The translations under genes were made by a program, and so were the position numbers. From a virus: DNA of 58,378 nt. Below, piece after piece: positions 30,376-39,067 of the stretch. Where the stretch lies: the IMG/VR virus record IMGVR_UViG_3300032249_000138, positions 1 to 58,378 of that record. One strand, written 5' to 3'. Within the stretch, counting starts at the first letter, position 1. The number at the start of each line of letters is the position of its first letter. Below the pieces are notes generated by a model, which was not told the origin of the DNA, did no database searches, and saw only the letters and a list, made by a program, of their open reading frames with translations.

Positions 30376-31034
30376 GTATCACTTTAAGTGAGTCTGTTAG
30401 ACGTAGTTTTGCATTAATCTAAATACTTGTCAAGTACTATTTTTAATTGTGTAGTTTAAGTACCACATCTACAACTGCCCACTCGTTATCTGCTAACACA
30501 CTAGAACCTCTTCTAAGCTGTTACAGTTATCTGGTGCACCCTAGGTATCACCTTATGTGAGATCACGTCTTGTAGGCACCTCTAATGCCCTGCAATCAGA
30601 TTGTACCACATAACCTAAGTACATTAAGTGATATGTTTTATGTGGAGTGGTTTACGTGTAGCATTTAAAGTGATGTTCAAAGGTGAGACAGGAAATGTGT
30701 GAGGGGGCATGTGTGTATATGTGAGTGTACACTAACCCTTTTAAATACCTGATCTGTGGGTATAGCCATATACAACTAACGCTACCCACCCCCATGACCC
30801 ACACGCACCCCCACAGCCGCCAGCACAATCACGTCATGACCTGCAGATGTGCAGATAATGCATAATGATGCAGATATATGTATCTCAAGAAGCTTTAAAA
30901 ACAAGGACTTAGAAGCTTAGTCTAACTGATTGTTTATCAGTTCAAGGGTAAAAGGTGCTTAAAAAATAGGCAATTTGAGTGATGGTGAAACCATAACCCC
31001 TAGTCGGTGTATGGCTTTTTACCCTATCCCCTTT

Positions 31035-31158
31035 CACCGAAGGTGTTTCACTTATCCTGCTTTTCACCTTTGGTGTTTAGTTTGATGTGTCGATTGTTTG
31101 CCGATTGTTCGACATATCACCTTTGGTGTTTTCACAAATCGTTACTTCACCTTTGGTG
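31035..31158. repeat. four CACCTTTGGTG-type dyads in two 30-bp-phased pairs
   Basis: CACCGAAGGTG at 31035-31045, and CACCTTTGGTG at 31065-31075, 31118-31128 and 31148-31158, each followed by TTT. Pairs are exactly 30 bp apart, about three helical turns, and the pairs lie 53 bp from each other. The perfect CACC/GGTG symmetry is that of a dimeric protein operator. Confidence 0.85.
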
Positions 31159-31224
31159 TTTTTGTGTTGAATGTTGGTCACTAAATCCCCATTCAAGGGT
31201 CATGTAGGTTTTTAATGGGGAACA

Positions 31225-31368: not shown

Positions 31369-31460
31369 TAGTTTTACTTATTTACGTGAATATATTTACC
31401 CTTTAACTGAAAGTGAAAGGGGATATAAATATATTCACTTTTAGTAAATAAGTTAAACTA
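31369..31460 (+). repeat. large near-perfect inverted repeat
   Basis: Left arm words ACTTATTTAC, GTGAATATATTTA and CCCTTT (31376-31404) are mirrored by AAAGGG, TAAATATATTCAC and GTAAATAAGT (31417-31453). A TAGTTT/AAACTA extension occurs on both sides and one 5-base bulge (TTTTA, 31439-31443) lies in the right arm. The end is 18 bases before the ATG of the first early gene. May be a replication-origin cruciform, an operator or a leader hairpin. Confidence 0.85.
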
Positions 31461-31478
31461 AATAAAGGAAAAATCATC

Positions 31479-32231
31479 ATGGCAAAATCAATCCGTCAAG
31501 CTCTTTTGGCTAACGAAGTTAGTAATTTGGCAATCTTTCAAGCCAAAGGCTTAATCCCTGAAATTTCAGTTGAGCCGATCACCACTTCAACTGTAAAAGT
31601 TGATAGCAAGTTGAAACCAAAAAAGCATTCAAATGCAGAATTAGCGAAAGACTCTAAGAGTCGGCATAAATTCAGCGAGATTATGAATCGACAATTCGGT
31701 GAAAAGGGTTTTACCCTTGGAGATGCTATTGAACATTCAGCTAGTGTTTACACTAGTATTTTGAAACAAAAACGCAATCAGCTTGAAAAGCTGTGTGAAA
31801 TCGGCAAGGTTTTACAGGAACTTCGTTCCGTAATTGGCAAGTCTGACAAGGAATTTGGTCAAGCAGTAAAGTCTACGGCTCTTAAAAACATGAGCCGTCA
31901 AGACCGTAGTGATGCCATGTGGTTATCCGAAAACTGGATAACAATCAAAGGCAAAATGAAAGAGTTAGATATTAACTCTTGCAGTGCTAGTTATCTTCGT
32001 CAGTTACTTCGTAAAGAAGCAAAATCTGCTGATAGCGAAGCTACTGTTAGCGAAGCTACTGAGTCAGATCAAGACTCTACCGAAGGTAGTTCTACTGTCG
32101 AATCTTCGTCACTAGAATTGTCTGGTGATGATGCTGAAAGCATAGCAGTTGCAGTCATCCAATTAGCGAAGCTAAAAGGTGTGTCACTTTCTGAAATAGC
32201 TACGCTAATTCTCGCAGAATCAGCTATCTAA
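31479..32231 (+). CDS. first early gene: 250-aa candidate regulator/initiator
   Basis: No family firmly recognised. The N terminus (MAKSIRQALLANEVSNLA) and the central helical region (residues ~60-165) resemble DNA-interacting proteins; LCEIGKVLQELRSVIG followed by EFGQAV recalls DUF3102-like plasmid/phage proteins. Residues ~180-215 are a Ser/Glu/Asp linker. The C-terminal helix AVIQLAKLKGVSLSEIATLI has a helix-turn-helix feel. It stands alone between an inverted repeat and a terminator, with AAAGGAAAAATC as RBS. A regulator or origin-binding protein is likely. It contains one copy of the 20-bp early element at 32093-32112 within its coding sequence. Confidence 0.8.
   Translation: MAKSIRQALLANEVSNLAIFQAKGLIPEISVEPITTSTVKVDSKLKPKKHSNAELAKDSKSRHKFSEIMNRQFGEKGFTLGDAIEHSASVYTSILKQKRNQLEKLCEIGKVLQELRSVIGKSDKEFGQAVKSTALKNMSRQDRSDAMWLSENWITIKGKMKELDINSCSASYLRQLLRKEAKSADSEATVSEATESDQDSTEGSSTVESSSLELSGDDAESIAVAVIQLAKLKGVSLSEIATLILAESAI
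32093..32112 (+). repeat. intragenic copy of the 20-bp early element
   Basis: Matches TACTGTCGAATGTTCGTCAC with a single change (G to C at the centre), inside the acidic linker of the 250-aa gene where it encodes part of STVESSSL. Confidence 0.8.
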
Positions 32232-32260
32232 AACCTACGGTTTATCCTGCAGTACACATT

Positions 32261-32279
32261 AGCCCCTTATGGGGCTTTT
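32261..32279 (+). terminator. rho-independent terminator of the first early gene
   Basis: AGCCCC (32261-32266), TTAT loop, GGGGCT, TTTT. It lies 30 bases after the stop of the 250-aa gene and isolates it from the downstream early operon. Confidence 0.85.
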
Positions 32280-32280
32280 G

Positions 32281-32365
32281 TGCTATGTAAGGTCATGATG
32301 TCATCACCTTGCTATGTAGTGTGCTATGCCCTGTGCTATGAAGTGTGACATGTATGTGATGTCAC
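32281..32365 (+). repeat. TGCTATG 12-bp repeats and GTGACAT dyad
   Basis: TGCTATG occurs at 32281 and then at 32310, 32322 and 32334, exactly 12 bases apart. It is followed by the perfect dyad GTGACAT (32345-32351) / ATGTCAC (32359-32365) with a 7-base spacer. Operator-like, just before the second early transcription unit. Confidence 0.7.
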
Positions 32366-32430
32366 GCCATGATGTATGTATGTGTTTCATGTCAATGGCA
32401 CAGGGTACGTGGCACAGTATTCAGGGTTTC

Positions 32431-32450
32431 TACTGTCGAATGTTCGTCAC
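32431..32450 (+). promoter_or_regulatory. 20-bp early element, copy before the 40-aa gene
   Basis: Exact TACTGTCGAATGTTCGTCAC, preceded by TC and followed by TAAATCGGAGG, which supplies the RBS of the next gene. Contains a CGAA-TG-TTCG dyad. Confidence 0.8.
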
Positions 32451-32467
32451 TAAATCGGAGGTTATCA

Positions 32468-32590
32468 ATGCCAACTTATCAAGACTATGTAGCGTATGCA
32501 AAAGCCAAAGGCTTTATCCCTTTCACCAAATCCACCTTCAATGCTTTTATCAAAGCAAAGATCAATCCCATCACTTCAACCACACTTTAA
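32468..32590 (+). CDS. small early protein, 40 aa
   Basis: Begins MPTYQDYVAYAKAKGFIPFT, with ATG at 32468 placed seven bases after a strong TCGGAGG Shine-Dalgarno; longer in-frame starts have no RBS and would run into the repeat element. Aromatic and basic, possibly helical. Function unknown. Confidence 0.75.
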   Translation: MPTYQDYVAYAKAKGFIPFTKSTFNAFIKAKINPITSTTL

Positions 32591-32603
32591 TCGGAGATTA
32601 ACT

Positions 32604-32837
32604 ATGTTAAATGAAATTCAAATAGCAGACCTCAGCGTAGCTGATAAGTCGCACGGTAGTCCATATGATCGGGGTAGGGCTGATAGCTACTACCACAGAC
32701 CTGAATGCCCACACTATTATCCACAGGGTACATACAACGGGGATCGCATCACAGACCTTACACCCGAGGAAGTGAGAGCGTACCTCGCAGGATATGCACA
32801 CAATGAAAGGTACGGGGATAAGAAAGATTGGAGCTAG
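32604..32837 (+). CDS. conserved small phage protein, 77 aa
   Basis: Start ATG 32604 after TCGGAGATTAACT. Contains SPYDRGRADSYYHRPECPHY and ITDLTPEEVRAYLAGYAHNE, ending KKDW. This pattern recurs as a small protein in many podoviruses and siphoviruses; no biochemical function is known. Acidic and basic patches, no membrane segment. Confidence 0.82.
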   Translation: MLNEIQIADLSVADKSHGSPYDRGRADSYYHRPECPHYYPQGTYNGDRITDLTPEEVRAYLAGYAHNERYGDKKDWS

Positions 32838-32847
32838 TACATAGTAC

Positions 32848-32945
32848 TAAGGGAAAGTCCCTATTTACAGGGAAAATTGTAGCTACGACAATGGAAGCCA
32901 AGCAGTCGAATTCTACTGTCGAATGTTCGTCACTAAAACTGGAGG
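32848..32945 (+). promoter_or_regulatory. leader cassette 1 (hairpin, GTAGCTACGA block, early element, RBS)
   Basis: After the stop of the 77-aa gene come AGGGA/TCCCT (hairpin near 32852-32864), TTGTAGCTACGA, the exact early element at 32914-32933 and AACTGGAGGT. The same order of blocks recurs at 35774-35870. Confidence 0.7.
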
Positions 32946-32952
32946 TAACACC

Positions 32953-33672
32953 ATGTCTGAAATCACCTTATTATCCACTGTCGCTAATGCCAAGATCGAG
33001 AAGACGAATGCCCTTGTAGGTGGCAATCATCTGTATGCTGAGATGAGCATGATGCCTAACAATGTCATCTGTGCAGGTAGTAAAGCTGCACAGTGTATGA
33101 CCCCATGCCTTAAGAATGCTGGTCGGGGTGTCTTCTCGAATGTTCAGTTATCCCGTCAACGGAAGACAGATTTTTGGATGTCCAATCCTACTGAATTCAA
33201 GGCTCAATTAGTAGGTGAATTGGAAGCCCTAATCAGGAAGGCTCAGAGACAGGGTAAAACGGCTCGTGTAAGGCTCAATTGCTTCTCGGATATATCTTGG
33301 GAGCTTCAAGCTTGTAATCGCAATGGCAAGCCATTTAAGGGCATTCCACAGGCTTTCCCCGAGATCGAGTTCTACGACTACACAAAGCATGCATCACGTT
33401 TAGGTAAGACACCTAGCAATTACACATTGACATTCTCATACTCTGGTGTATCCACCTATGTGAATCAAGTCAAACTGGCACAGGGTTCTAGCGATACCAA
33501 TATGGCAGTGGTATTCCATGGTAAGGAATTGCCTGTCACTTTCATGAATCGGAAGGTAATCGATGGTGACTTGCACGATGCCCGTATCGATGATCCTAAG
33601 GGTGTGATTGTGGGACTACGTGCCAAGGGTCCTGCTCGTAAGGATGTATCAGGTTTTGTAGTCCACATTTAA
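32953..33672 (+). CDS. GP88-like phage protein, 239 aa
   Basis: Resembles the phage gene product 88 family. A Cys-rich N-terminal part (CAGSKAAQCMTPCLKNAGRG, residues ~40-60) is followed by VRLNCFSDISWE and FYDYTKHASRLGK. The late part has DARIDDPKGVIVGLRAKGPA. The start ATG 32953 follows CTGGAGGT; a longer frame upstream overlaps the leader and is rejected. Family function is unknown; the conserved Cys and Asp/Arg residues hint at a metal-binding enzyme. Confidence 0.85.
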   Translation: MSEITLLSTVANAKIEKTNALVGGNHLYAEMSMMPNNVICAGSKAAQCMTPCLKNAGRGVFSNVQLSRQRKTDFWMSNPTEFKAQLVGELEALIRKAQRQGKTARVRLNCFSDISWELQACNRNGKPFKGIPQAFPEIEFYDYTKHASRLGKTPSNYTLTFSYSGVSTYVNQVKLAQGSSDTNMAVVFHGKELPVTFMNRKVIDGDLHDARIDDPKGVIVGLRAKGPARKDVSGFVVHI

Positions 33673-33683
33673 TCGGAGGATAT

Positions 33684-33719
33684 ATGACAGTTCAGAGCTT
33701 AATCGGAGGATACCTATGA
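33684..33719 (+). CDS. 11-codon mini-ORF between duplicated RBS linkers
   Basis: ATG 33684 follows TTAATCGGAGGATAT and the frame reads MTVQSLIGGYL, with its TGA overlapping the ATG of the next gene (ATGA). A second copy of the TTAATCGGAGGATA linker lies inside it. It may couple translation of the downstream gene, or be the scar of a gene lost by recombination between linkers. Confidence 0.4.
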   Translation: MTVQSLIGGYL

Positions 33720-34054
33720 TTATCGTTATTCGTACCCAATACATGGAGAACTATGGGGCACATGACTGGGATGGGGAAGGTGTGTGTCCACAATACTGGA
33801 AGTATAAGGGTGGCTCAGAGTACAAGGTTCGGAATATCCCTAGTGATATCGACACATACCCCAGCATTGTAGGTATGGTAAGCAAGGATGTAGCTAGGGA
33901 TGATGACTACTGCAGGGAGTATGTACTGGAGTGGTTCGTAGAAGCAGATGACTATCTGTCATGGTTCGAGAAGTCCCAGCTTGAGCAGGATGGGTCTATC
34001 ACCTACGGTGAACCCGAGATTGACTATCGCAGTTTAATTACGGAGGGTGTATGA
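33716..34054 (+). CDS. conserved small phage protein, 112 aa
   Basis: Starts MIIVIRTQYMENYGAHDWDG and contains CPQYWKYKGGSEYKV, a pattern found in small proteins of diverse phages. Acidic C-terminal half with many Asp/Tyr. RBS TCGGAGGATA. No known activity; ATGA coupling to the next gene. Confidence 0.8.
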   Translation: MIIVIRTQYMENYGAHDWDGEGVCPQYWKYKGGSEYKVRNIPSDIDTYPSIVGMVSKDVARDDDYCREYVLEWFVEADDYLSWFEKSQLEQDGSITYGEPEIDYRSLITEGV

Positions 34055-34218
34055 CAGACACACAAAGAAGTGCATTACGCTGTGCATATCTTGACCTTAA
34101 AGGGGCATTGGAAGCTGCTGAAATGGCTGACATTCATGCTCATGATTGGAAGGCACACAAGCAGAGCATTCAGGAAATTGAACAACACTTTGCCGATGTT
34201 ATCGGTGACTTAACTTAG
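34051..34218 (+). CDS. small helical early protein, 55 aa
   Basis: A 55-codon frame begins MTDTQRSALRCAYLDL and runs through AHDWKAHKQSIQEIEQHF, a helical segment common in tiny phage proteins. It overlaps the previous stop (ATGA). Function unknown. Confidence 0.75.
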   Translation: MTDTQRSALRCAYLDLKGALEAAEMADIHAHDWKAHKQSIQEIEQHFADVIGDLT

Positions 34219-34226
34219 GAGGATGT

Positions 34227-34418
34227 ATGGATATTACTAAAGCAATCGAGATCATCAAGGAGTATGGCAATGGCATCGGTACTACCGATATCCTGCTCAC
34301 ACTCAATGAGATGTTGGATGACGAAGACCTACCCAACAAGGATCGTGCCGCATTGAACCTGTTTATGCATGAGGGTAGGAAGATGTTTGAATCTGTAAAG
34401 ATTCGATTAGAAGTATGA
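34227..34418 (+). CDS. small early protein, 63 aa
   Basis: RBS TTAGGAGGATGT. Helical, acidic protein MDITKAIEIIKEYGNGIG with LNEMLDDEDLPNKDRAAL and a basic C terminus. ATGA coupling to the next gene. No family recognised. Confidence 0.73.
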   Translation: MDITKAIEIIKEYGNGIGTTDILLTLNEMLDDEDLPNKDRAALNLFMHEGRKMFESVKIRLEV

Positions 34419-34837
34419 GAGTCACACCAGTAGCACCCGTCTACCCTGTGTCCAAGTTCAATAGGCACAGGGAACAAGCAGTATATACACCCAAACCCAA
34501 GGAGAAAATTGTGCAATATATTACACATAATGAAGATGATTCCATCCGTACCTGTGGCACTTGCCTACGAGGTCACATCAATACCAGCTACGCTAATCTA
34601 GTGGATGCATTTGGTCAGCCCATGAAGGATGGGTTCGATGACTACAAGTCAGATGCCGAGTGGATAGTACAGTTTGAGGATGGTCTTGTGGCTACAATTT
34701 ATAACTATAAAAATGGTATCAATTACTGTGGCTCAGAGCATGGCACACCTACACATCTGATCCATGACTGGAACATAGGTGGATATGATACAGCCGTAGT
34801 TACCTACATCATTGATGCATTGAAGGAGACAGCATGA
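34415..34837 (+). CDS. early protein with conserved C-terminal domain, 140 aa
   Basis: Basic Pro-rich N terminus, then CGTCLRGHINTSYANLVDAF, KSDAEWIVQFEDGLVATIYN and IHDWNIGGYDTAVVTYI. The region from about residue 50 to 130 matches a small domain seen in many phage accessory proteins. Cys47/Cys50 (CGTC) could bind metal. Function unknown. Confidence 0.78.
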   Translation: MRVTPVAPVYPVSKFNRHREQAVYTPKPKEKIVQYITHNEDDSIRTCGTCLRGHINTSYANLVDAFGQPMKDGFDDYKSDAEWIVQFEDGLVATIYNYKNGINYCGSEHGTPTHLIHDWNIGGYDTAVVTYIIDALKETA

Positions 34838-35028
34838 AAATCGTAGTGTACTTTGAGACACCAAAGGTGTTATATGCAGAGGTGGTAGCCCAGTTTGCAA
34901 GTGAGGAGATGTACCATGCTTGCCTACCTATACTCGAAGACATGGCACAGAGAGACGGGTTCATCGTTACAGAATCTGTGCGTGAAGAAGATGTAGTTAC
35001 GGATAAATTTGACACGGAGGATGTATGA
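34834..35028 (+). CDS. small early protein, 64 aa
   Basis: MKIVVYFETPKVLYAEVVAQ then MYHACLPILEDMAQRDG, a possible ferredoxin-like alpha/beta fold. ATGA couplings at both ends. It contains the word CACCAAAGGTG (34859-34869), the reverse complement of the hub dyads, in its coding region. Function unknown. Confidence 0.73.
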   Translation: MKIVVYFETPKVLYAEVVAQFASEEMYHACLPILEDMAQRDGFIVTESVREEDVVTDKFDTEDV

Positions 35029-35207
35029 AAAAGTATGAGGTGCTTATAGCAAGAAATGAAACCACAATCTATACGATTGAGGTGATGGCTAAGTCAGAAG
35101 ACGAAGCAGAGAAGAAGGCATATGTAAAGTTCGCCAAGAATGACATCGAAGATGAAGAAGTAGTGTATGGCGAGGAAGAAACTTACGAGATCAACGAGCT
35201 TGAATAG
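35025..35207 (+). CDS. small acidic early protein, 60 aa
   Basis: MKKYEVLIARNETTIYTIEV then KSEDEAEKKAYVKF and a Glu/Asp-rich tail; beta-beta-alpha pattern shared with the next gene. ATGA overlap with the previous gene. Function unknown. Confidence 0.73.
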   Translation: MKKYEVLIARNETTIYTIEVMAKSEDEAEKKAYVKFAKNDIEDEEVVYGEEETYEINELE

Positions 35208-35215
35208 GAGGATGT

Positions 35216-35392
35216 ATGAAAAAAACATATCGGGTTGTCGCTTCGTATGTTGTTGAATGCTACTGTGACATACAAGCAGAATCGAAGGATGAAGCGTGGG
35301 ATCTTGCCTATCACATAGATGGGGGAGACTATCGCCAAAGAAAAAACTTTGACGGAGACTGGCAGATCGAAAGAATCGAGGAGGTAGAATGA
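35216..35392 (+). CDS. small early protein, 58 aa (likely paralogue of the previous gene)
   Basis: Frame MKKTYRVVASYVVECYCDIQ with AESKDEAWDLAYHIDG resembles the preceding 60-aa protein (MKKYEV..., SEDEAEKKA), suggesting tandem duplication. RBS AGGAGGATGT; TGA overlaps the next ATG. Confidence 0.77.
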   Translation: MKKTYRVVASYVVECYCDIQAESKDEAWDLAYHIDGGDYRQRKNFDGDWQIERIEEVE

Positions 35393-35778
35393 GAGTATTC
35401 GTATACTGGAATTTACACAAGGACTGCTGGTCAGTGAAGGCACTCGAGGGTGAGAACAAGGGCAGGGTCATACGCCATGCCAACAACATCAACCTCACTC
35501 ACTGCACATTCAAGGTGTCCAAGGCTGGCAGGGAGCGTGTGCTTAGGGAGAAGCGTAAGAATGTCCATGCTGGTGTAGTAGGTACACTCAGCTTTGTAGG
35601 TGAGATGGGTGACACAGGATTGTGGAAATGTGCCAGCACCTATCCTGCATTCGTACCTGTTACCTACAACCCATACAAGTACAGCACATTTGTTCGTAAG
35701 AACAATGACTACATGGAAATGCACACATCCCCCGATGTATTTTTAAATCAGGATCGGAGTGTGTTTGCAATGGTCTAA
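35389..35778 (+). CDS. conserved phage protein, 129 aa
   Basis: Starts MRVFVYWNLHKDCWSVKALE, contains GRVIRHANNINLTHCTFKVS and RERVLREKRKNVHAGVVG, a strongly conserved pattern in small proteins of many phages. Basic and aromatic, with no membrane segment. Function unknown. Ends just before leader cassette 2. Confidence 0.82.
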   Translation: MRVFVYWNLHKDCWSVKALEGENKGRVIRHANNINLTHCTFKVSKAGRERVLREKRKNVHAGVVGTLSFVGEMGDTGLWKCASTYPAFVPVTYNPYKYSTFVRKNNDYMEMHTSPDVFLNQDRSVFAMV

Positions 35779-35870
35779 GGGTTTGTCCCTATTGACGGAG
35801 GTTTATTGTAGCTACGATACTAGCAAGGCTTTATGTTTCTACTGTCGAATGTTCGGCACTAACTTGGAGA
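35774..35870 (+). promoter_or_regulatory. leader cassette 2 (hairpin, GTAGCTACGA block, early element, RBS)
   Basis: AGGG/CCCT hairpin overlapping and following the stop of the 129-aa gene, GACGGAGG, ATTGTAGCTACGA, then the early element at 35840-35859 (one mismatch, T to G) and TTGGAG. Same order of blocks as at 32848-32945. Confidence 0.7.
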
Positions 35871-35877
35871 TACACAA

Positions 35878-36303
35878 ATGAAGATCAGCAAAGTGGAAGT
35901 AGAAGTACCAGCAGGTCACTACATACTAGGTGATCCGTGCTATGTAGTACCCGATAGTGATTGGGATTCCTTACTGCAGTCATGCAATTACTTTGAGAAT
36001 CCTATCGGCTATGTCAAGGATGGAATACAGGAGTTCCCCGTACTTGCATTCAGTACCCTTTGGGGTGATGGTTGCTATAAGGGTACGGACGGCAACACAT
36101 ACCCAGTAGATGCAGGATTGATAGGGCTAGTGCCTGTAGAAATATTGGGCAAGGATGTCCACAACTTGAGGGGTGACCTATCGAAGATAGTCACATTCGA
36201 TAAGACGATTAAGTGCAGCAGGGACAGTGATGGCAAGCTACGCTTTGGTCACATCACAATCGACACAGATCCTGCACAGGATGAGGAGGAGGAAGAAGAA
36301 TGA
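35878..36303 (+). CDS. conserved phage protein, 141 aa
   Basis: Characteristic HYILGDPCYVVPDSDW, FSTLWGDGCYKGTDG and YPVDAGLIGLVPVEI words, followed by a highly acidic tail (DEEEEEE). This type occurs in many phage and bacterial accessory regions; function unknown. RBS TTGGAG in leader cassette 2. Confidence 0.82.
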   Translation: MKISKVEVEVPAGHYILGDPCYVVPDSDWDSLLQSCNYFENPIGYVKDGIQEFPVLAFSTLWGDGCYKGTDGNTYPVDAGLIGLVPVEILGKDVHNLRGDLSKIVTFDKTIKCSRDSDGKLRFGHITIDTDPAQDEEEEEE

Positions 36304-37708: not shown

Positions 37709-38147
37709 TCATCCCAAGGCACGAGAGCGTAACAAGTTCGATGCCCCCGTGGATGTGAAGGAGCATGACTGGGTACATACGAATGTCAAGTTTGTAGGTA
37801 CACCAGTGCAGTATGGCACAGTGTACAAGGCATTCAAAGGTACGACACCCTTCACTGATCTAGGATACAAGGCACAGGCTGATTGCCCTACACACACCAT
37901 CAGTAGATGGTCGGTAAGGGAATGTCCTGTAGCTAAGTACGATGGTGATAGTTTGTGGGTAGCATTCGAGTCACGGGGTGGTACACCTCACCAGTTCTTG
38001 CAGTATGTAGCAGATACACAGGAGGTAAAGGTTGTAGGTACACATTTACCTGTGTATTCAATTAGATGGAAGCAGACGATCTACTCTAAGGGTTTACCCC
38101 CATTGACAAGTAGTTACGGTAGGTCTGATACTAGCAGTGCAATTTAG
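37677..38147 (+). CDS. early protein, 156 aa
   Basis: RBS GGAAAGGATCAC. Beta-rich protein with VDVKEHDWVHTNVKFVGTPV and TVYKAFKGTTPFTDLGY. Function unknown. A TTGACA-18-GATACT promoter-like pair lies in its last codons (38103-38132), reading into the DUF932 gene. Confidence 0.72.
   Translation: MLEALEVVVPNHPKARERNKFDAPVDVKEHDWVHTNVKFVGTPVQYGTVYKAFKGTTPFTDLGYKAQADCPTHTISRWSVRECPVAKYDGDSLWVAFESRGGTPHQFLQYVADTQEVKVVGTHLPVYSIRWKQTIYSKGLPPLTSSYGRSDTSSAI
38103..38132 (+). promoter_or_regulatory. possible promoter for the DUF932 gene
   Basis: TTGACA (38103-38108), 18-base spacer, GATACT (38127-38132). Perfect -35, 4/6 -10; located ~60 bases before the DUF932 ATG. Confidence 0.4.
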
Positions 38148-38191: not shown

Positions 38192-39067
38192 ATGTTAGTT
38201 ACATCAAACAGTGGTATCCCAGCATTGCCAGCACACTTGGACTTTGACCCAGTGCGTGAGCCACAGATGCGTAATGGCATTGCAATCCCTAACAAGTTCT
38301 GGACAGTCAATCCCCTCACAGATACGGTGATCGGAGATGGCAAGTCAGTGCATAACCCAGTCAACTTCCGTACCGTATGGGACAACATGCGTACTGGCTT
38401 GAGCCTAGCTAAGCTGGACACCAGCAATGTGGATGTCAAGTTCTCATCCATGAATAATGGTGCAGCATTCTCTGCTCAGATCATCCTCAAGCAGTACAAC
38501 TTCGAGAAGAAGTTGGGTGAGCCAGCGAAGATGGTGATGCATGTCCGTGACTCACACGATCAGTCAGTCAAGATGCAGATCAGTGCTATGATCTACCGCC
38601 TTGCTTGCTTGAACGGTATGATTGCACCACGAGAGCGTGTCGGTATCTCACAGAAGCACACCACGTTCTATGATCCTGAGGTCATCGGCAAGGTAGCTTC
38701 CCAGTTCCCTGAGAAGTTAGAGCGTGATGCAGAGGTGATGTATCAGATGCAAGGTGTCAAGGTGAATCGTGATACAGCTATCGAGTTCTTCCGCAAGAAC
38801 GTAGCTACATACGTTACGAAGACTGGTGCCAAGATCAATAACAAATGGCTTGAGCGTATCATCGGTATCTACGATAGCTACAACACCATGAATGGTACTG
38901 CGTATCAGGTCTACAACACACTGACACACATCAGTACTCACGTTGAAGCACAGCGTGATGGCACTGAGGTAGAGCGTAAGCGTATCCGTATTGAGCAGGA
39001 CATCGAGTCTGTCATTCAAGGTGCTGACTTCCAGCACATGATTGCACCTCAAGTAGAATACGCTTAA
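38192..39067 (+). CDS. DUF932-family phage/plasmid protein, 291 aa
   Basis: Recognisable DUF932 features: an N-terminal region leading to KFSSMNNGAAFSAQIIL, NSHDQSVKMQ-like RDSHDQSVKMQISAMIYRL and CLNGMI (about 130-150), then a charged helical C-terminal half. The family is common on phages and plasmids, and its biochemical role is unresolved. RBS AAGGAAATAAAT. It is followed by a terminator and thus seems to be a separately controlled unit. Confidence 0.88.
   Translation: MLVTSNSGIPALPAHLDFDPVREPQMRNGIAIPNKFWTVNPLTDTVIGDGKSVHNPVNFRTVWDNMRTGLSLAKLDTSNVDVKFSSMNNGAAFSAQIILKQYNFEKKLGEPAKMVMHVRDSHDQSVKMQISAMIYRLACLNGMIAPRERVGISQKHTTFYDPEVIGKVASQFPEKLERDAEVMYQMQGVKVNRDTAIEFFRKNVATYVTKTGAKINNKWLERIIGIYDSYNTMNGTAYQVYNTLTHISTHVEAQRDGTEVERKRIRIEQDIESVIQGADFQHMIAPQVEYA

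Follow-up and report, generated by a model that had tools for sequence, protein, structure and literature searches.

A dispersed palindrome with one copy inside a gene as a probable early operator system in an HMO-2011-type phage genome

Dimeric phage repressors such as lambda cI and P22 c2 bind palindromes of 16–18 bp, built of half-sites and gathered in two clustered operator regions, and the internal operators of lac (O2) and gal place a repressor site inside the coding sequence of the target gene. The immunity repressors of L5-clade mycobacteriophages work through operators and stoperators (PMC6550527, PMC9283540); these sites are 13 bp long, asymmetric, oriented with transcription and present in 20–30 copies per genome, and they are bound by a monomer with two DNA-binding domains (PMC9283540). 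Cluster K mycobacteriophages carry the SAS/ESAS elements, asymmetric repeats with the sequence GGGATAGGAGCCC; ESAS contains inverted repeats, and the available part of PMC3203893 links no binding protein to them. Here we analyze a 20-bp element that recurs in a viral sequence of 58,378 nt, IMG/VR record IMGVR_UViG_3300032249_000138 (the whole of which we call the window), around and within a gene for a 250-amino acid (aa) protein. By analogy, the L5 repressor/stoperator system is nearest to it in behavior. Our data argue that the element is a palindromic DNA operator at which a dimer of the 250-aa protein would bind and repress, an explanation we hold to be probable.

The 20-mer TACTGTCGAATGTTCGTCAC occurs exactly at 32431–32450 and 32914–32933, with one mismatch at 32093–32112 (TCTTCG) and 35840–35859 (TTCGGC), and as a weak copy matching at 16 of 20 positions at 31162–31181, all on the + strand. 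These are the positions and mismatch counts given in an initial annotation made from the sequence alone. No further match with three or fewer mismatches was found in the window, where 0.01 would be expected from dinucleotide shuffles. The annotation had also placed the element before early genes at a near-constant distance, 12–24 bases, from the ATG; it does precede early genes and looks functional, and the spacing is indeed near constant but tighter than that range, with gaps of 17, 19 and 18 bases to the ATGs at 32468, 32953 and 35878, each of which is preceded by a Shine-Dalgarno (SD) sequence. The CGAA-TG-TTCG dyad that it described is real and forms the center of a longer palindrome, TGTCGAA-NN-TTCGWCA. 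With one more degenerate copy upstream, the total comes to four good and two degenerate sites (Table 1), and there are no related sites elsewhere in the 58 kb.

We looked for the element's absence from relatives, the outcome named at the start as one that would speak against it, and found the element present in related phages. A scan of the collection returned copies of the 20-mer in 19 stretches of IMG/VR DNA, with several per contig in some. When mismatches were allowed, these records revealed the window copies to be imperfect forms of TGTCGAA-NN-TTCGACA. A scan for the perfect palindrome added further contigs, and in many of them three to five copies are clustered; the consensus including flanks is TAS-TGTCGAA-NN-TTCGACA-STA, several per phage. 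Chance origin is ruled out for the clustered sites, while roughly 30 contigs with a lone perfect palindrome and no homologue of the 250-aa protein look like background and were left out. The order of the sites is conserved: one lies about 250–500 bp upstream of the gene, one inside it and one usually 120–850 bp after it, before the next gene, and a fourth is often present further downstream in relatives.

From the window and its relatives we assembled 85 non-redundant sites with at most one mismatch (42 leader or downstream, 25 intragenic and 18 upstream). Eleven of the 14 core positions never vary, and 83 sites have T at position 1; nearly all mismatches fall on the symmetric positions 3/14 (T/A 45, T/T 25, T/G 9, A/A 5, C/A 1), and the weaker half of the palindrome can be on either side. 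Such a pattern, judged from the sequences, fits an operator for a symmetric dimer, in which one half is good and the other may be weaker. The same positions bear on the idea, raised in the initial annotation, that the element acts in leader RNA as a processing signal or translational operator. Leader copies do lie just before the SD sequence in sense orientation, and a 6-bp hairpin could form where the copy is perfect. However, 31 of the 85 sites break the pair 3/14 (U-U, A-A or C-A), none is compensated and no swapped A/T occurs, and the RNAs of the three window leaders show no more folding than shuffled sequences (z −0.20 to +0.40). No Rfam family matched, and in two distant relatives (L148 and L149) the upstream copy lies ahead of a TTGAC promoter-like sequence and would therefore not be part of that transcript. 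On the missing compensation and missing folding signal we rejected both forms of the RNA explanation, which we consider extremely unlikely. An SOS/LexA box was rejected as well: the gram-positive SOS box is GAACN4GTTC, and its internal spacing differs.

The copy inside the 250-aa gene is the strongest evidence for an operator. A protein search gave 26 clade-1 homologues with the linker region on the contig, and the site is present in all of them. It is also present in 24 of 25 non-redundant open reading frames (ORFs), the remaining one being truncated; one locus (L132) adds a degenerate pair. When synonymous codons were shuffled within each ORF, the site appeared in 0.75 of the 25 on average and in 4 at most. 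It lies 127–196 nt before the frame end (64 in one ORF that runs off the contig), invariably in one frame, and encodes (T/S)-(V/D)-E-x-S-(T/S). Its codons are GTC (25 of 26), GAA, NNT, TCG, and ACA or TCA, while elsewhere in these genes GTC, TCG and ACA make up only 19, 10 and 16% of the codons for their amino acids. The central codon is free, its residue spanning seven amino acids. With fixed synonymous codons flanking a free central codon, and given the shuffling result, what is conserved is a DNA word and not a peptide. Many of these loci were fetched by motif, which could bias the count; the same clade was recovered by a scan that used the protein only (27 loci, and 7 more remote ones), and every member of the clade in which that part was visible has the site. 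Feedback through the intragenic copy, as first proposed, fits these data. The companion proposal, that the leaders were copied from it, fails: in every clade-1 homologue the site is maintained separately, as DNA, and the Roseobacter phages CRP-1 and CRP-345 have an intragenic site of another sequence. Our literature search for intragenic operators in phage repressors found no paper.

The 250-aa protein is divided into an N-terminal region, a helical core (about residues 72–184), a disordered linker (187–211) and a C-terminal helix pair (219–248), and the operator lies within the stretch that encodes the linker. In the structure model the core has five helices (pLDDT 91), one of which starts with an invariant SRQDRSD segment, and on this model we read the core as probably a helix-turn-helix. 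A profile search of the fetched loci found homologues in contigs with clustered sites. Structure searches against solved and viral models gave no significant match; two of the weak viral matches are named DUF3102 (E 0.8 and 3.4, not significant), a resemblance of models that we treat as a lead only. None of the 21 family members has a convincing Pfam match, nor any match to Pfam DUF3102. There was no useful DNA match to GenBank phages and no simple protein match to the regulator there, and a scan of genome contigs for prophages or host copies found no relative. Taken with its sites, the protein is most likely a DNA-binding repressor with dispersed operators, one of them feeding back on its own gene.

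By sequence comparison, site and protein vary together. Seven distant homologues (L148–L154, about 26–34% identical) have no TGTCGAA palindromes; they carry TGTCGGA-N3-TCCGACA instead, upstream, about 70–115 bp after the stop codon and then before the SD sequences of following genes. In L153 a site of this type falls within the linker and not after the stop. In a scan with the extended TGTCGGA motif, all five contigs with at least four sites encode the protein and five single-site contigs do not.

The comparison extends to isolates. The window encodes an integrase, primase, helicase, DNA polymerase A and ribonucleotide reductase. Because its helicase is 53–55% identical to those of HMO-2011, CRP-1 and CRP-345, and its polymerase (PF00476) has a weak PF00684 match corresponding to the DnaJ-like insert annotated in HMO-2011, we assign the window by sequence to the HMO-2011-type phages. 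We examined ten isolates of this group. Three of them, HMO-2011, CRP-1 and CRP-345, have a remote homologue in the leading early position (profile-profile probability 97, E 5e-11), a link reached only via the helicase and the profile comparison. CRP-1 and CRP-345 carry GTCCAA-NN-TTGGAC in 5 and 6 perfect copies, where shuffles gave 0.03 and 0, and HMO-2011 carries AGTCCG-N4-CGGACT. One copy lies inside gp01 of CRP-1 and of CRP-345, in a reading frame different from that of the window clade, and HMO-2011 has a copy just after the stop codon, not inside the gene. In the other seven isolates the protein has no match anywhere in the record, and no palindrome occurs three times within the first 14 kb, so that repeated palindromes are present in 3 of 3 isolates with a homologue and, within those 14 kb, in 0 of 7 without. 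The palindrome sequence thus changes with the clade of the protein family, and related phages keep one site at the end of the regulator gene, usually inside it, even where the sequence of the site has changed. As a separate observation, CRP-1 and CRP-345 carry additional palindromes close to where the integrase gene ends and within a gene that follows the polymerase (6868 and 13621 in L158; 7079 and 14469 in L157), whereas the window sites stop at 35858.

These comparisons also bear on whether the palindromes are operators read by another early phage protein or a host factor, the 250-aa protein being a co-regulated neighbor. The protein is tied to the sites only indirectly, and other early genes are common to these phages. 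Against this, the palindrome shifts with the clade of the 250-aa protein even between phages of related hosts, site presence tracks the protein in the 10 isolates, and its gene is flanked by sites and itself contains one. A search of the window for HTH_3 proteins gave none, and if a host factor read the sites, they should not be missing from sister phages that share a host genus. We regard a different binder as unlikely, though of some weight.

The surroundings of the leader sites suggest how the protein may act. A sigma-70-like motif ends 21–24 bp ahead of the palindrome in 14 of the 42 leader sites, and in none of the 25 intragenic or 18 upstream sites. This spacing would put the operator inside the transcribed region, from about +15, in those 14 leaders. 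The element had also been proposed as a novel promoter, which we rejected for leaders with ordinary promoter motifs upstream. A few relatives (L010 at 4960, L014 and L018) have a shortened upstream promoter, and there the operator could serve as a 17-bp spacer. The longest-ORF start of the second gene, 32923, falls inside the element; it is probably not the real start, since GGAGG sits between 32923 and 32953.

Our proposal is that the helical, probably helix-turn-helix core would contact the palindrome, the C-terminal helices would dimerize the protein, and the bound protein would repress. At leader sites a dimer from about +15 could block initiation, escape or passage of RNA polymerase. At the intragenic and upstream sites, or between genes, it could act as a roadblock, limiting the regulator's own transcription in a negative feedback and also read-through into the early genes. 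The protein might instead activate or anti-terminate early transcription at these sites, which do precede early genes; but where promoters are recognizable the sites lie downstream of the start, and one is within the regulator gene. Sites downstream of the start or within a gene are the usual places for repression or a roadblock, and we think activation highly unlikely.

Another alternative is that the sites serve genome maintenance (as a ParB-like centromere, in nucleoid-like organization or in replication control), with effects on transcription secondary. Dispersed palindromes, within genes as well as outside them, are used by some partition and KorB-type proteins, and here 16-bp palindromic sites, as in ParABS systems, flank an origin-like region with CACCTTTGGTG repeats. 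Yet no ParA-type ATPase (PF13614) was found in the window, a record that may be incomplete, and 41 of the 42 downstream palindromes lie directly before an SD sequence and start codon, a placement that maintenance would not need. We judge this explanation quite improbable.

Several points weigh against repression by the 250-aa protein. What binds the sites and whether its effect is positive or negative are both inferred from sequence, and the protein has no Pfam, PHROG, PDB or significant structure match that would mark it as DNA-binding. The upstream sites of the window itself are degenerate. A plain promoter scan showed no enrichment, and the sigma-70-like motif was chosen after viewing the leaders, which are related, so that it counts as support and not proof. 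Finally, twelve contigs have sites and no homologue; most of these sites are close to the end of their contig, so that the gene may lie beyond it.

As to the position of the intragenic site, the regulator family may keep an operator where its own gene ends (3’), usually within the reading frame, as a built-in delayed feedback, and may re-create the operator when its DNA specificity shifts. We put even chances on this; the operator would then dictate part of the protein's linker.

Table 1. Putative operators, promoters and genes of the early region of the window
Feature	Coordinates	Strand	Context	Support
Degenerate upstream operator TGCCGATTGTTCGACA, 2 mismatches	31099..31114			present too in G001, G006
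Degenerate upstream operator TGTTGAATGTTGGTCA, 3 mismatches	31165..31180			better copy in relatives L028, L031, L011, L004
250-aa gene, candidate regulator	31479..32231	+		family co-occurs with operators; predicted to bind DNA
Intragenic operator TGTCGAATCTTCGTCA	32096..32111		in 250-aa gene, 133 nt before frame end	palindrome match, kept in homologues
Leader operator TGTCGAATGTTCGTCA	32434..32449		before SD of 40-aa ORF	counterparts in L007, L010
40-aa ORF	32468..32590	+	after operator	similar ORF after operator in L026
Sigma-70-like promoter TTTACA-17-GACAAT	32864..32892	+	ends 24 bp before palindrome at 32917	same layout in relatives
Leader operator TGTCGAATGTTCGTCA	32917..32932		before SD of GP88-family gene	counterparts before same gene in L004, L007, L010, L011, L028, L031, L091
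GP88-family gene	32953..33672	+	after operator	Pfam match, GP88 (PF17338)
Sigma-70-like promoter TTGACG-18-GATACT	35792..35821	+	ends 21 bp before palindrome at 35843	same layout in relatives
Leader operator TGTCGAATGTTCGGCA	35843..35858		before SD of 141-aa gene	counterparts in G001, G007, G008
141-aa gene, unknown function	35878..36303	+	after operator	PHROG 20074

Other elements lie close to the regulator gene. Just before its start, a 98-nt hairpin at 31369–31466 has a folding energy of −34.4 kcal/mol (z −7.6 against shuffles). A similar hairpin, with apical ACCCyUU...GUGAAAGGGGAU, precedes homologues in L004, L011, L017, L028, L091 and HMO-2011 (gp74), and one of the same type precedes another gene in L009 and L117. 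At one position of the stem the pair varies among phages between U-A, G-C and A-U. The 31369–31466 hairpin has no Rfam match, and automatic alignment recovered the apical stem only; from these sequences it looks like a new conserved RNA leader. Further upstream, 31033–31161 holds four copies of TTCACC(TTT/GAA)GGTGTTT, with the 11-bp palindrome CACCTTTGGTG or CACCGAAGGTG, spaced 30, 53 and 30 bp. These repeats are kept beside the upstream operator in relatives and may represent either origin iterons or another operator.

The 40-aa ORF shows weak similarity to the N-terminal end of the 250-aa protein (10 of 33 residues identical, E 0.003 in one pairwise comparison) and shares with its gene a 20-bp DNA repeat, AAGCCAAAGGCTT(A/T)ATCCCT; it may have arisen as a fragment of the regulator. 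Each early promoter has an AGGG-N-CCC(T) dyad immediately ahead of its −35 box (32849–32863, 35778–35791 and 38088–38102), seen also in relatives, which could be an activator site or could weakly terminate the preceding unit. The promoter region recurs at 38085–38136 (TTGACA-18-GATACT) before a DUF932 gene at 38192, there with no operator, and so promoter and operator are separable modules.

HMO-2011-type phages are described as a dominant and broadly distributed marine viral group (PMC9038755). We found no description of their early regulation, and the main text of that paper does not contain the words repressor or promoter. For this group the present analysis offers a candidate regulator, its operators and a list of target genes; from its sequence the regulator is probably a previously undescribed phage control protein that reads a conserved palindromic switch site. 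It also offers a clear natural case of a coding sequence constrained by the operator it carries, and several variants of operator specificity in one protein family, from which protein–DNA recognition could be mapped.

Set beside the known systems, the locus resembles L5 in that its sites are dispersed at promoters, between genes and around the regulator gene, and in that the sequence of the site diverges with the repressor (PMC6550527). Unlike in L5, the sites are palindromic and not asymmetric or oriented with transcription, number 4–6 per genome (not more than 20 in the window, CRP-1 or CRP-345), lie mainly in the early region and include one in the regulator's coding sequence, and the 250-aa protein shows no recognizable relation to L5 repressors. 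It is like SAS (PMC3203893) in being a short conserved repeat just upstream of the start codons of several genes, but it differs in sequence and symmetry from the GGGATAGGAGCCC motif, ends before the SD sequence, is palindromic and occurs also in a gene and upstream of the regulator. With lambda cI and P22 c2 it shares palindromes with half-sites, a probable dimer and likely autoregulation; here, in contrast, the sites are single and dispersed, an operator lies inside the repressor gene, and the window has no match to HTH_3 (PF01381). The lac O2 and gal operators likewise put a repressor site that aids repression within a coding sequence, whereas here the site is in the presumed regulator's own gene. 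What the locus does show is a palindrome repeated at control points and linked to a phage-encoded protein, as would be expected of a dispersed palindromic phage operator regulon.

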